Source: a virus. Taken from it: a DNA stretch of 29,836 nucleotides. The notes beneath the pieces were generated by a model that saw only the letters and a list, made by a program, of their open reading frames with translations, did not search any database and was not told the DNA's origin. Positions 1-29,836 of this stretch are shown here, in pieces. The stretch lies in IMG/VR virus record IMGVR_UViG_3300037347_000015, positions 1-29,836 of that record; one strand, given 5' to 3'. The stretch's first letter is position 1; every line of letters starts with the position of its first letter. The position numbers and the translations under genes are program-made.

Positions 1-185
1 TAATCGAGTTTCTACCTGTTTGAACCCTTTCATTTTCGACTACTTTCCCAGTAATATTCGTGTAACGCATTCGCCACTTTACGCCGCTCGGCATTAGCCG
101 TCTTGCATTTTGCTCTAACTTTGAGTTGGTTCCAAATTGACCGTAAAAAACCTCAACAAAAATAAAAACATTTTTTTCAACTGTG
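1..185. repeat. Left copy of 185-bp terminal direct repeat
   Basis: Bases 1-185 repeat at 29652-29836 with a single difference (T at 58, C at 29709). This is what an assembler produces from a circular or terminally redundant, circularly permuted genome. The unique genome length would be 29,651 bp. The reading frame continues through the join, which supports true circular closure. Confidence 0.93.
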
Positions 186-1213: not shown

Positions 1214-1337
1214 TGCCGAATAGTTCTTTTAACGTTTCTTTTTTTCTTAACTCTTTTTTTTCTAGCTTCCTATATTCCTTTTTTAAATAAGGGAAAAATC
1301 TTCGCAAGTGCATTCGTGTAGTTTCTTTTTGTGTCAT
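1155..1337 (-). CDS. Small basic protein overlapping terminase end
   Basis: A 60-residue, very Lys/Arg/Glu-rich, probably helical protein (LKKEYRKLEKKELRKKE). Its ATG overlaps the terminase stop (ATGA-type, 4 bases), a strong sign of translational coupling. Its 3' end overlaps the next gene by 59 bases. Function unknown; a charged helix next to the terminase could bind DNA or protein. Confidence 0.5.
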   Translation of the reverse strand: MTQKETTRMHLRRFFPYLKKEYRKLEKKELRKKETLKELFGNDETDIKKLKVIFDYQNLV

Positions 1338-2539
1338 AGTGGCATAGGTGTTTTACGTTGTATATTAATAAAATATCCAGCGGCTTCTGTTATGTGGTCA
1401 AAGCCTGTTGTTTTGTCGGGTTCTCCATTCTTATATGTTTGTCGCTCGGTGGCTTCTGTGTAAACAGGGCAGTTGTTTGTATTGATAAAATATACCCTTT
1501 CGCCTTTTGCGTTCTTAAAAGCAGCGTTAACAGCGTTTACTCGGTCCTTTACAAATGGGTTCTTGTTTGGTTTTCTTATATTAAACCCTGCATCGCGTAG
1601 TACTATTATATCGCTTTTACCGCTTGACTTTCTATTGTCGCCACTTGCATCTGGATAAATTACGATTGAATGACCTGCGTACTTTGACTGGATCAAAGAA
1701 ACCATTTCAAAAGTATCATAAGCGTTTACTATTTCAGCCACCGCGGTCTTAATGTTGCCGTCAATTACGTGGACCACTGCGTTCATTTTAGTGATGTTAA
1801 AATCCATTCCGATATGCAGCACATCATTTGCTTGTATCTCTCGAATAGAATTGTTTTCAATCCTGTCAAAGTGGTGGTAAACGTTACCGCTTGTTAAGTT
1901 GACAAACTCGCCATTTAGGTATGCTTCTAGTTGTTGAGCTGTATAAATGTCTGAAAGGGTTTCAATATATTCTTCTGGAATAAAGGGGTTATCTAATGTT
2001 TTGCCCTTTATCATTTTGCGGTTTGCCTTTGTTTTGGTTACGAAAAACTCATAAGCCCACTTAAACCCTTCTGGTGTACCTACCACATCAGTTTTATTTT
2101 TATCGCCATTTGGCAACTGGCAGCGGTTTCTTGCGATAATCTTCACGAACACATCACTCATTGCGTCCTTAGAAAGTATATCTGTTTCGTCAATTAACGA
2201 ATACCCAACCTCGTAGCCTACAATGCGCTCTGGGTTTGACATAGACCTTAAAATTATCTTACCGTACTTAGTGTTAAAAAAATGTTTTGATTGGTTTAGA
2301 ACGTACGGTATGTTCATATTTGTAAGAAGTTCCGCAAATTTAGGTATTGCTACGTCCTCAATCAGTCCGTACGTTGGTAAGTAGTAAGCAACTGGAATGC
2401 TTGGATATTTCAACTTCATTAAAGTAGTTTTTAAAACGCCCGCAAAAGATTTGCCCGAACCGTAACCTCCAATTAGCCCTGTGTGTGTTGCGTTACTGTT
2501 TACAAAAGCTGCCTGATTTTTCAAAACTTTTAATTCCAT
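1334..2539 (-). CDS. terL: Terminase large subunit
   Basis: The 401-residue DNA-packaging motor: an N-terminal ATPase drives DNA into the prohead through the portal and a C-terminal RNase H-like nuclease cuts the concatemer. Visible motifs are Walker A GGYGSGKS (residues 24-31), Walker B with acidic pair SLIDETD (D117, E118), and nuclease acidic residues in HIGMDFN (D246), YPDASGD (D297) and DHITEAAGYF (D381). Length and motif spacing fit the PBSX/Terminase_6-like group. It starts directly after the small-subunit stop, and its own stop overlaps the next gene. Confidence 0.95.
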   Translation of the reverse strand: MELKVLKNQAAFVNSNATHTGLIGGYGSGKSFAGVLKTTLMKLKYPSIPVAYYLPTYGLIEDVAIPKFAELLTNMNIPYVLNQSKHFFNTKYGKIILRSMSNPERIVGYEVGYSLIDETDILSKDAMSDVFVKIIARNRCQLPNGDKNKTDVVGTPEGFKWAYEFFVTKTKANRKMIKGKTLDNPFIPEEYIETLSDIYTAQQLEAYLNGEFVNLTSGNVYHHFDRIENNSIREIQANDVLHIGMDFNITKMNAVVHVIDGNIKTAVAEIVNAYDTFEMVSLIQSKYAGHSIVIYPDASGDNRKSSGKSDIIVLRDAGFNIRKPNKNPFVKDRVNAVNAAFKNAKGERVYFINTNNCPVYTEATERQTYKNGEPDKTTGFDHITEAAGYFINIQRKTPMPL

Positions 2540-2839
2540 TTATATAATTTTAAACGTTATCGGTTCGACGGCTGTAAATTCTTCGTTTATATTATGCTGC
2601 ACAGATTTACCAGCGTACCTATCAAGTACTTCTTTGATTGCGTTCATATCGCCCTTCACAGCCATTGTAGTAAGCTTATTTATAATTGCCGTTAGCTTAT
2701 CCACTCCACCGCTTTCGGTCTGTAATTCAGCCGTTAAAACCTCTTTAAGGAGTTTTGTTTTGGGTGCGCCTTTGCGGTTTATGTTTTGCGGGTTTACATC
2801 AAACCCTTTGCCCTTTTTTAAATTGTCGTTTTTTTCCAT
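2540..2839 (-). CDS. terS: Probable terminase small subunit
   Basis: A 99-residue protein immediately upstream of terL with no gap. The N-terminus is basic and polar (KKGKGFDVNPQNINRKGAPK), followed by helices (LKEVLTAELQ, DKLTAIINKLTTMAVKGDM, IKEVLDRYAGK). The NRKGAPK stretch and the later VLDRYAGK are typical of small DUF5681-like or terminase small-subunit proteins in Bacteroidota phages. It should bind the packaging site and recruit TerL. The call rests mostly on position and this layout. Confidence 0.7.
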   Translation of the reverse strand: MEKNDNLKKGKGFDVNPQNINRKGAPKTKLLKEVLTAELQTESGGVDKLTAIINKLTTMAVKGDMNAIKEVLDRYAGKSVQHNINEEFTAVEPITFKII

Positions 2840-2860: not shown

Positions 2861-3643
2861 TTATTTTAAATTTACAAATGCTTTTAATGGATAAAATATT
2901 AGCGAGTTTCTATAACCGCCTTCGTGCGTTGGTATAATAGGGGTTACTCCGTGTATATTTTTCCACGCTGGGTAAACCAGTATTGAGTTGTTTGCGCTGT
3001 CCATTGTCGCATTATAATCTGGCACGTGTAAATTACCCCCTTTTGCGTTTAATCTTTTTGTTATAATAACATTAACCGCTCCAACTATGTTTCCTGTGTC
3101 CCTGTGAAAAGGAGCTGAAAGGTTTAAGTTAGAAACGCTGCTTGTCCAAAGACTACCAAACTTCCATTTATCATGTACTTGTTCAAATAGTTTTTTTTGT
3201 GCTTCATATTGATTTGGTAGTATTTCTTTTATTAACAATTCACTTTCTTTTGCAAGTAATAACATTGCCTTTATAAAAAGTGTTGTTTTTTTATTATTAT
3301 GTTGTGATGAGATGCTTTTAAACGGTCTACCTATGTATGGTTTTGGAGGAACGCTCCCAAGTATTACGCTTGCACCCTCGCCAACGGGTCTATCTTTACT
3401 AGCCAAAACGCTTTTACTCCCCCCTCCTAGCCGACCCTCTTTCTTTACGTTATCACTCATCAATTCTTTTGAAGCCAAGTTTGCCAGCTTACACATCTTG
3501 TCAGGCATCTGTTTAATGTAGAAACCTATTGCAACACCATCCTCATAAAAAATACAATCATCAGTTATGTTTGGCTCAATGTACGGACATTCTTGCCCTA
3601 TCTTTGTGTCGTGCTGAACCTTTACTAAATCAATTCTTTTCAT
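2861..3643 (-). CDS. 2OG-Fe(II) dioxygenase, probably TET/JBP-like DNA base hydroxylase
   Basis: The 260-residue protein carries the double-stranded beta-helix iron site in its C-terminal half: HRD (H180, D182), then H231 in NIHGVTP, and R245 in GGYRNSLIF, which would bind 2-oxoglutarate. Between them lies NVIITKRLNAKGGNLHVPDY, the strand and GG-x-L turn usual in this fold. Its ATG overlaps the end of a glycosyltransferase gene (4 bases), which itself overlaps a ParB-like gene. That trio is characteristic of phage systems that hydroxylate 5-methylpyrimidines in DNA and then glycosylate them. The first ~160 residues I cannot assign. Other 2OG oxygenase roles remain possible, but the context favours DNA modification. 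Confidence 0.75.
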   Translation of the reverse strand: MKRIDLVKVQHDTKIGQECPYIEPNITDDCIFYEDGVAIGFYIKQMPDKMCKLANLASKELMSDNVKKEGRLGGGSKSVLASKDRPVGEGASVILGSVPPKPYIGRPFKSISSQHNNKKTTLFIKAMLLLAKESELLIKEILPNQYEAQKKLFEQVHDKWKFGSLWTSSVSNLNLSAPFHRDTGNIVGAVNVIITKRLNAKGGNLHVPDYNATMDSANNSILVYPAWKNIHGVTPIIPTHEGGYRNSLIFYPLKAFVNLK

Positions 3644-4371
3644 ATTACTTGTCTTTTATAGTGGTTTGCTAATGCTTTTATATCTGTTTTCATATCTAAC
3701 CTTTCGCCTTTGCGTTTTAAGGTTACAAATGGTTGCCATTCTTGGCACATTTTTTTTGCACTTGCTTCGTCTTTTTTTAATTTGTATTCATCTTGCAAAC
3801 CACCTTTGTTACTTCCAACGTCTGGACAACTAAACCAATAATGATTAAACCTTAAAACTCCGTTACCTTTTTGTATTGTTTGTAAAGCAAAATCTCTATC
3901 TTCTTTTAGATTAAACTCTGGTCTATAATTCCATCTAATTTTTGAAACATTCATTAAAACACAAACTTCAGCAAACTTTTTATTTATAGAATATTTTGTT
4001 TTCTCGTGCCATGCGTGCTGTGTGTAATTTATACCAACTAATTCAAATGGTAAAGCCTTAACTTTATTATAAATATCAATCCAAATAGAAGCGTCTTTTT
4101 TAACTGTTTTTCCGTTGTAAATTCCAAAAGAAGTAACATCGTCGTCGCAAACTATAATCCATTCTTCTTTGTTTTCTTTTGCCCAATTTAAAACAAAGTT
4201 TCTAACATATCCAATACCACCGTTATTTTTTTTAATACTAACTTTGTTTGGAACGTTGTATAATTCTAACTCTTGTGGCTCAATAAAATGAAATACTTTT
4301 ATCCGTACATCTTCAAATAGTTTGTATGTTTTTGTTGTTGGTCTGCCTTTTGTCGGTATACAAACTATCAT
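3640..4371 (-). CDS. GT-A glycosyltransferase, probably TET-associated (TAGT-like)
   Basis: A 243-residue protein. The N-terminal strand MIVCIPTKGRP is a nucleotide-sugar binding start. GGIGYVRNFVLNWA leads to the metal-binding acidic motif IIVCDDD (D76-D78), the DxD of GT-A enzymes. LKEDRDF (E158, D159, D161) is the usual later acidic motif near the acceptor. Gene coupling to the 2OG oxygenase on one side and ParB on the other (both ATGA-type overlaps) points to a DNA-base glycosyltransferase acting on hydroxymethylated pyrimidines. The sugar and target base cannot be read from sequence. Confidence 0.78.
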   Translation of the reverse strand: MIVCIPTKGRPTTKTYKLFEDVRIKVFHFIEPQELELYNVPNKVSIKKNNGGIGYVRNFVLNWAKENKEEWIIVCDDDVTSFGIYNGKTVKKDASIWIDIYNKVKALPFELVGINYTQHAWHEKTKYSINKKFAEVCVLMNVSKIRWNYRPEFNLKEDRDFALQTIQKGNGVLRFNHYWFSCPDVGSNKGGLQDEYKLKKDEASAKKMCQEWQPFVTLKRKGERLDMKTDIKALANHYKRQVI

Positions 4372-4943
4372 AATTTATTCTTTTCGGCTTTTAAAAAGTC
4401 CAATATCATTTTACCTACATAAGCGTCTTGTTCGCGCCAAAACTTTACAAGTGCATACGCTTCTTCGTAATGGTTTGGTTCAAATTCAATTTGAATAGCT
4501 TTCTTGACGCCGTTTTTCATTTCGTCAAGTTGGTTGTCCAAATCATCGTTATCATCAAGTAAAGAGTAGTCAACTTCTACTGGCTGTTGCCAAACATCCA
4601 AGCCCCACTCCGTTAACTCCTCAGCATCCCATTTGTTTGCTAAGCTATCCCAATCCCATTCTCCAAATCCAACGTTATCTTTTATGATAAATTCCTTTTG
4701 CTGTTGCTCTGTAAGGTTGCTTGCTTTGATAATCGGCACTTCTTTTAAACCAGCTTCTTTACACGCTTTTAAACGCATATTACCACCCAATACAATCATA
4801 TCATCGTTGACTACAATCGGACGTAAGTTAAGCATTTCTGGGAACTCTTTAATAGATTTTACCAACTTAGCAAATTTGTCGTCTTTTATAATTCTGGGAT
4901 TGTTCGGGTTTGTTTTAACCTCTGATATTTTTACTACTTGCAT
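4368..4943 (-). CDS. ParB-like N-terminal domain protein
   Basis: A 191-residue protein with a ParB/Srx-fold domain at residues ~1-90: KISEVKTNPNNPR, then IVLGGNMRLKAC with the GxxR motif (G53-R57), then EVPIIKASNLTEQQ. The segment NVGFGEWDWDSLANKWD and TEWGLDVW is usual in phage ParB domains that are often fused to DNA methyltransferases. Here the methyltransferase part is absent and the protein ends in an acidic linker and a short helical tail. It heads the three-gene modification operon. It may be a sequence-specific adaptor, CTPase or nuclease; no direct evidence decides. Confidence 0.82.
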   Translation of the reverse strand: MQVVKISEVKTNPNNPRIIKDDKFAKLVKSIKEFPEMLNLRPIVVNDDMIVLGGNMRLKACKEAGLKEVPIIKASNLTEQQQKEFIIKDNVGFGEWDWDSLANKWDAEELTEWGLDVWQQPVEVDYSLLDDNDDLDNQLDEMKNGVKKAIQIEFEPNHYEEAYALVKFWREQDAYVGKMILDFLKAEKNKL

Positions 4944-29579: not shown

Positions 29580-29836
29580 AACCTTTAATTTTGTTAATTA
29601 GTGCGGTTACCGCCGTTGTGCTTTGCCTTCCAATAGTGTCAACTATTTTATTAATCGAGTTTCTACCTGTTTGAACCCTTTCATTTTCGACTACTTTCCC
29701 AGTAATATCCGTGTAACGCATTCGCCACTTTACGCCGCTCGGCATTAGCCGTCTTGCATTTTGCTCTAACTTTGAGTTGGTTCCAAATTGACCGTAAAAA
29801 ACCTCAACAAAAATAAAAACATTTTTTTCAACTGTG
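29542..29836 (-). CDS. HK97 gp10-like head-tail/tail-completion protein, 3' part of junction-spanning gene
   Basis: This is the same gene as at 1-289, seen at the right end of the contig; its 5' end lies beyond 29836 in linear view. The C-terminal half carries MPSGVKWRMRYTDITGK and a basic tail rich in Lys and Arg (KKKDTETNRR). The stop overlaps the start of the next gp10-like gene by 38 bases (29542-29579), which suggests translational coupling. The family assignment comes from the N-terminal half. Confidence 0.68.
   Translation of the reverse strand, partial: TVEKNVFIFVEVFYGQFGTNSKLEQNARRLMPSGVKWRMRYTDITGKVVENERVQTGRNSINKIVDTIGRQSTTAVTALINKIKGFGKKKDTETNRR
29652..29836. repeat. Right copy of 185-bp terminal direct repeat
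   Basis: Second copy of the sequence at 1-185. The one mismatch (29709 C versus 58 T) changes Asp to Asn in the gp10-like gene that crosses the junction. It is either a strain variant in the sequenced population or a sequencing error. Confidence 0.93.

Follow-up and report, generated by a model that had tools for sequence, protein, structure and literature searches.

The 29,836-nt viral genome IMGVR_UViG_3300037347_000015, the whole of which was analysed and is called the window here, encodes a ParB-like protein, a glycosyltransferase and a TET/JBP-like dioxygenase side by side, raising the question of which base such a cassette would modify. The first-pass annotation of this DNA had offered two readings: conversion of thymine to a glycosylated hydroxymethyluracil, or use of host-made 5-methylcytosine (5mC). 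We consider it likely that the cassette writes a post-replicative DNA hypermodification in which thymine becomes 5-hydroxymethyluracil (5hmU) and then glycosyl-5hmU. Here the TET/JBP enzyme would hydroxylate the 5-methyl group of thymine in replicated phage DNA, and the glycosyltransferase, a member of the TAGT family, would then move a sugar onto the hydroxyl of 5hmU, giving an O-glycosyl-5hmU that is chemically base J-like. The ParB protein, whose gene always lies immediately upstream, is probably a DNA binder that chooses the site of modification or loads the enzymes, and the modified phage genome would withstand host restriction.

Genes and predicted activities of the cassette

The three cassette ORFs (Table 1) are joined by overlaps of exactly 4 bases at both junctions, and the terminase genes lie directly downstream of TET. 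The first-pass annotation had the three genes, their positions and their overlaps correct to the base, and its family assignments held as well, with all three proteins scoring above the curated Pfam cut-offs: ParB_N (PF02195; 6.2e-8, 33.0 bits, cut-off 26.3), TAGT (PF20691, 'TET-Associated Glycosyltransferase'; 8.3e-14, 52.4 bits, cut-off 27.5) and Tet_JBP (PF12851; 7e-10, 38.8 bits, cut-off 34.9). The motifs that it had named are likewise present (DDD and EDRD in the glycosyltransferase; HRD at 180-182, H231 and R245 in the oxygenase). The genome is circularly closed by a 185-bp end repeat with 1 mismatch, which supports the earlier description of it as complete and makes the absence of a C5-cytosine methyltransferase meaningful: as had been claimed, PF00145 has no match in the closed window genome. 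The Pfam scans of window ORFs turned up no other methyltransferase, and the window genome has no thymidylate-synthase-type hydroxymethylase (PF00303).

Table 1. Cassette genes, adjacent terminase genes and end repeats in the window
Feature	Coordinates	Strand	Remarks
ParB_N-domain protein, 191 aa	4368..4943	-	PF02195, phrog_498; cassette gene 1
TAGT-family glycosyltransferase, 243 aa	3640..4371	-	PF20691; GT-A fold; exchangeable slot gene
TET/JBP-family Fe(II)/2-oxoglutarate dioxygenase, 260 aa	2861..3643	-	PF12851, AF2 model; predicted thymine 5-methyl hydroxylase
Probable small terminase-type protein	2540..2839	-	Between TET and large terminase, as in MED4-184; Pfam DUF5681/DUF6730 only
Terminase large subunit	1334..2539	-	PF17289 6e-13, PF03237 1e-10
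End repeat, left copy	1..185		184/185 identical to 29652-29836
End repeat, right copy	29652..29836		184/185 identical to 1-185

An AlphaFold2 (AF2) model of the window TET, built from 28 relatives (mean pLDDT 91), ranked closest among solved structures to human TET2 (Z 19.4), NgTet1 (19.0), CcTet (16.8) and CMD1 (16.5), followed by FTO (14.5) and the AlkB group (ALKBH3, 14.4). The iron triad (H180, D182 and H231), the 2-oxoglutarate-binding R245, and N185 and Y251 are invariant in 161 relatives. The window TET is predicted to oxidise a methylpyrimidine in DNA. The first-pass annotation had also named a small-molecule or protein hydroxylase as an outcome that would speak against its proposal; we rejected this identity, as DNA-base dioxygenases lead the structural ranking.

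The glycosyltransferase model (pLDDT 89.6) matches GT-A nucleotide-sugar transferases; within its acidic metal motif, D77 is invariant and D78, E157 and D158 are at least 90% conserved. The family evolves fast (16-26% identity between divergent members, compared with 45-71% for TET), and a search of PDB sequences with the TAGT profile gave non-significant matches only. In phages T2 and T6, a TAGT enzyme puts a second glucose onto glucosylated hmC (PMC13216743), and the family therefore acts on modified pyrimidines in DNA and is not tied to one base. For the window TAGT, the predicted acceptor of the sugar is a hydroxymethylated base of the DNA.

That the cassette modifies a tRNA, a protein or a small molecule, and not DNA bases, seems very improbable to us. 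Such a substrate would agree with the label 'queuine tRNA-ribosyltransferase' carried by phrog_6059 and several RefSeq records, but a transglycosylase domain was not found in the TET protein, the Tet_JBP match and the best structural matches point to DNA-base dioxygenases, and the partners are ParB and, in relatives, ADDT, an amino acid:DNA transferase. The label is a propagated annotation error, found also on NC_020847.1 CPAG_00035, NC_051582.1 gp2 and many Mycobacterium phage records, and its correction concerns a wide database error. One family member is labelled 'DpdA-like tRNA-guanine transglycosylase' despite its Tet_JBP match and TET fold.

A fixed ParB-TET pair beside an exchangeable tailoring gene

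Searched against viral contigs, the window TET returned 80 loci, the weakest at ∼51% identity, and the TET of Mycobacterium phage LilMcDreamy, used as a second query, returned 80 more. The cassette is far beyond chance: the order ParB-X-TET recurs in scores of contigs, including Prochlorococcus phage MED4-184, in which ParB, one gene, TET, small terminase and large terminase follow one another as in the window. Cassette-bearing genomes of about 28-40 kb are common among the relatives, and the cassette is thus less notable in a 30-kb phage than the first-pass annotation had supposed. In bacterial genomes, PF12851 is very rare (1 of 398 and 2 of 292), and a lysogen search of the genome collection found only 3 loci, all in MAGs.

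Within the window clade, the position between ParB and TET is held by TAGT in 33 loci, an FkbM-type SAM methyltransferase in 9, a P-loop kinase alone in 5, an amidotransferase with ADDT and kinase in 6, ADDT and kinase in 2, and a 301-aa protein of uncertain family in 2; it is empty in 15. In a sister, actinophage-like clade the tailoring genes follow TET, the order being mostly ParB-TET-ADDT-kinase, as in Rhodococcus phage Tonitrus (ADDT 9.4e-23, Ploopntkinase3 3.6e-50), and sometimes including TAGT (1.3e-13 in locus L132; 1.3e-5 in Arthrobacter phage Lilmac1015). Overall, TAGT occurs in about 40 loci and ADDT in 69 of 168.

Placed on the TET tree, the slot labels require at least 28 changes of type, and close neighbours differ. 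For example, locus L048, with TAGT, and locus L051, with a kinase, have TETs that are 98.1% and ParBs that are 98.4% identical and DNA flanks that are ∼91% identical, and homology stops on both sides at the borders of the slot gene. The same pattern, with homology ending at the slot-gene borders, was seen between a TAGT locus (L008) and an FkbM locus (L012). Slot genes have a lower GC content than ParB and TET in 55 of 56 loci, which are not independent of one another; in the window the values are 0.30 for TAGT and 0.365 for ParB and TET. Overall, the results show that ParB and the TETs of this subfamily occur as a constant pair, next to which the tailoring gene is exchangeable.

Other genes of the cassettes hint at further chemistry. 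The FkbM methyltransferase (L082 16431-17132, and L004, L010, L012, L014, L029, L035, L042 and L047, MED4-184 being included) could possibly O-methylate the base, giving 5-methoxymethyluracil. The 301-aa slot protein (L020 2080-2985; L021 4083-4988), which has no significant Pfam or PHROG match, looks as though it may be another glycosyltransferase. In LilMcDreamy, gp4 (L092 2656-3756), an Asp/Asn beta-hydroxylase-like oxygenase (PF05118, 1.5e-10), follows ADDT and may carry out a second hydroxylation step in the hypermodification of that phage.

ParB lies upstream and on the same strand in all 96 TET loci that have at least 2.8 kb of upstream sequence. The window protein matches phrog_498 (5.6e-28, residues 2-138 against 36-172 of 633) and is similar to the N-terminal portion of phage proteins in which ParB is fused to a DNA methyltransferase, the methyltransferase domain itself being absent from it. 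A motif, NPR...GGNMR...DNvg.geWDwd, is conserved across 68 relatives, with the ParB box (GG-x-MR) kept. ParB probably targets or loads the enzymes. ParB/Srx-fold proteins can bind or hydrolyse nucleotides, and this ParB is as invariant as TET, so that it might itself be a catalyst of the pathway, such as a base kinase, and not a DNA-binding or targeting factor. We regard this as improbable, since ParB is present also where a separate P-loop kinase exists, its conserved motif is the ordinary GG-x-MR box, and it is akin to ParB domains fused to methyltransferases.

Thymine or cytosine as the substrate

Thymine is favoured as the substrate because the partners found beside this ParB-TET core in relatives, ADDT (PF18724, 'Amino acid:DNA transferase') and the kinases, are enzymes of the 5hmU pathway. 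In that pathway a kinase first phosphorylates the 5hmU of phage DNA, and amines are then added (PMC6449724); the authors of the Tonitrus genome arrived at the same thymine reading for that phage (PMC11955845). In M6-type phages, 5hmU is supplied by a thymidylate-synthase homologue (PMC9599517). However, PF00303 was found in none of 33 records (the window and 32 related records, ADDT carriers included), leaving TET as the only visible source of 5hmU. Further, because near-identical TETs serve different tailoring genes, they presumably provide the same base, 5hmU, in the window also. The window itself has neither the 5hmU kinase nor the ADDT/aGPT-Pplase found beside the same core in relatives. 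Thymine is thus the better supported of the two alternatives of the first-pass annotation. Counted against it are the kinases of the window clade, which are divergent and score above the cut-off for no family of thymidine-specific kinases, and the TAGT family, which is not thymine-specific.

The other alternative, in which TET oxidises 5mC made by the host (or by an unrecognised methyltransferase family) and TAGT glycosylates the resulting 5hmC, appears unlikely. Characterised TETs do prefer 5mC, and the T6 TAGT works on a cytosine derivative. In the alignment with TET2, window Y251 corresponds to Y1902 and the conserved N185 to N1387, a 5mC contact, so that the TET pocket is compatible with cytosine too. 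The position of TET2 H1904, another 5mC contact, is Leu in 157 of 161 relatives, a replacement that would be compatible with a different base but falls short of proof. Two MAGs that bear relatives of the cassette encode many C5-methyltransferases, and host 5mC therefore exists in some hosts; one MAG encodes none. Finally, of the 80 related records searched, 10 have a PF00145 match, in several cases a short fragment, and the remaining 70 have none. ORFs of ∼213-231 aa (L040 3420-4061; L084-L087) align with the C5-methyltransferase profile over its N-terminal third alone and are possibly truncated or divergent methyltransferases.

However, ADDT and kinase partners act on 5hmU, not on 5hmC, and near-identical TETs could hardly serve one pathway confined to cytosine and another confined to thymine. 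No locus has a C5-methyltransferase in the cassette slot. Host 5mC is sparse and varies between hosts, and the phage family spans cyanobacterial, actinobacterial and probably Bacteroidota hosts. Host 5mC would explain neither the constancy of the cassette across them nor the presence of ADDT; it accounts for none of the ADDT/kinase context. The missing methyltransferase, which had struck the first-pass annotation as surprising, is the rule in the ParB-linked TET family. Nor did we find a linked C5-methyltransferase beside the contrast TETs of Nonlabens phage P12024L, its relatives, Cr30 or S-CBWM1. As the TET-TAGT cassette of P12024L also does without one, the lack of a methyltransferase is by itself weak evidence, and it is the ADDT/kinase swaps that carry the argument for thymine.

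We lean, by a small degree, towards a broader proposal: that ParB and a thymine-specific TET are the standard 5hmU-writing platform of many phages, fitted with swapped modules for sugar transfer, O-methylation, phosphorylation or amino-acid attachment, and that the window phage carries the base J version. This would be the first glycosylated 5hmU from a phage, and it might be related to the source from which base J arose.

Known systems and the sugar

The kinetoplastid base J pathway (JBP1/JBP2 thymidine hydroxylase and base J glucosyltransferase) likewise uses a TET/JBP dioxygenase followed by a glycosyltransferase, and the product predicted for the window, O-glycosyl-5hmU in DNA, is alike. 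Unlike that pathway, the window cassette is phage-encoded and ParB-coupled, has no J-binding domain, and its enzymes are only distantly related to those of kinetoplastids. In the thymidine hypermodifications of phages M6, ViI and phiW-14 and in Tonitrus, 5hmU is the common intermediate. The M6/ViI-type partners, ADDT/aGPT-Pplase and a P-loop kinase, are present in the sister cassettes, Tonitrus having ParB, a TET-like gene, ADDT and a kinase (PMC11955845), whereas the window has TAGT instead. Moreover, 5hmU arises at the nucleotide level in M6-type phages, whereas the window TET would make it in the polymer.

Phage TET/JBP-TAGT operons were reportedly predicted by Iyer et al. in 2013, and Burke et al. 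are said to have described phage TETs acting on 5mC in 2021. These systems share the enzyme families and the operon idea with the window; the window differs in having no cytosine methyltransferase, such as supplies 5mC in the cytosine-directed phage TET systems, and in a gene context that points to thymine. Thus, TET/JBP-TAGT phage operons and ParB/TET thymidine-hypermodification clusters have already been proposed; added here are a ParB-TET core that stays constant while the decoration gene is cleanly exchanged, and the possibility of a base J in phages. To our knowledge, glucosylated 5hmU was unreported in phage DNA as of 2019.

If the thymine reading is true, these phages obtain 5hmU by oxidising the thymine of finished DNA and not via the nucleotide pool, and one core builds several different hypermodified thymines. 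It would also provide bacterial parallels of base J and enzymes with which modified T could be written into DNA, and the phages would form a natural series in which each decoration could be matched to the restriction enzymes that it defeats. The swapping of the slot makes the older prediction directly testable, and because the family includes isolates with genome records (Prochlorococcus phage MED4-184/P-HS2, Arthrobacter phage Lilmac1015 and Mycobacterium phage LilMcDreamy), this can be done without cultivating the window phage.

The identity of the sugar in the window is not predictable, and the window has no gene for a PIG-L GlcNAc de-N-acetylase. Such a gene follows ParB-TET-TAGT in the cultured Lilmac1015 (L179 3652-6993) and suggests GlcNAc as the sugar of that phage; its cassette could possibly place glucosamine on 5hmU.

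The flavobacterial phage P12024L (gp26-gp28; L178 7122-9384) has adjacent PF12851 and PF20691 genes, as in the window, but no ParB annotated alongside, a different gene order (TET-TAGT-N6/N4 methyltransferase) and a TET that is 19% identical. In that TET, HKDSGD and YYR take the places of the HRDxxN and YxL of the ParB-linked family.
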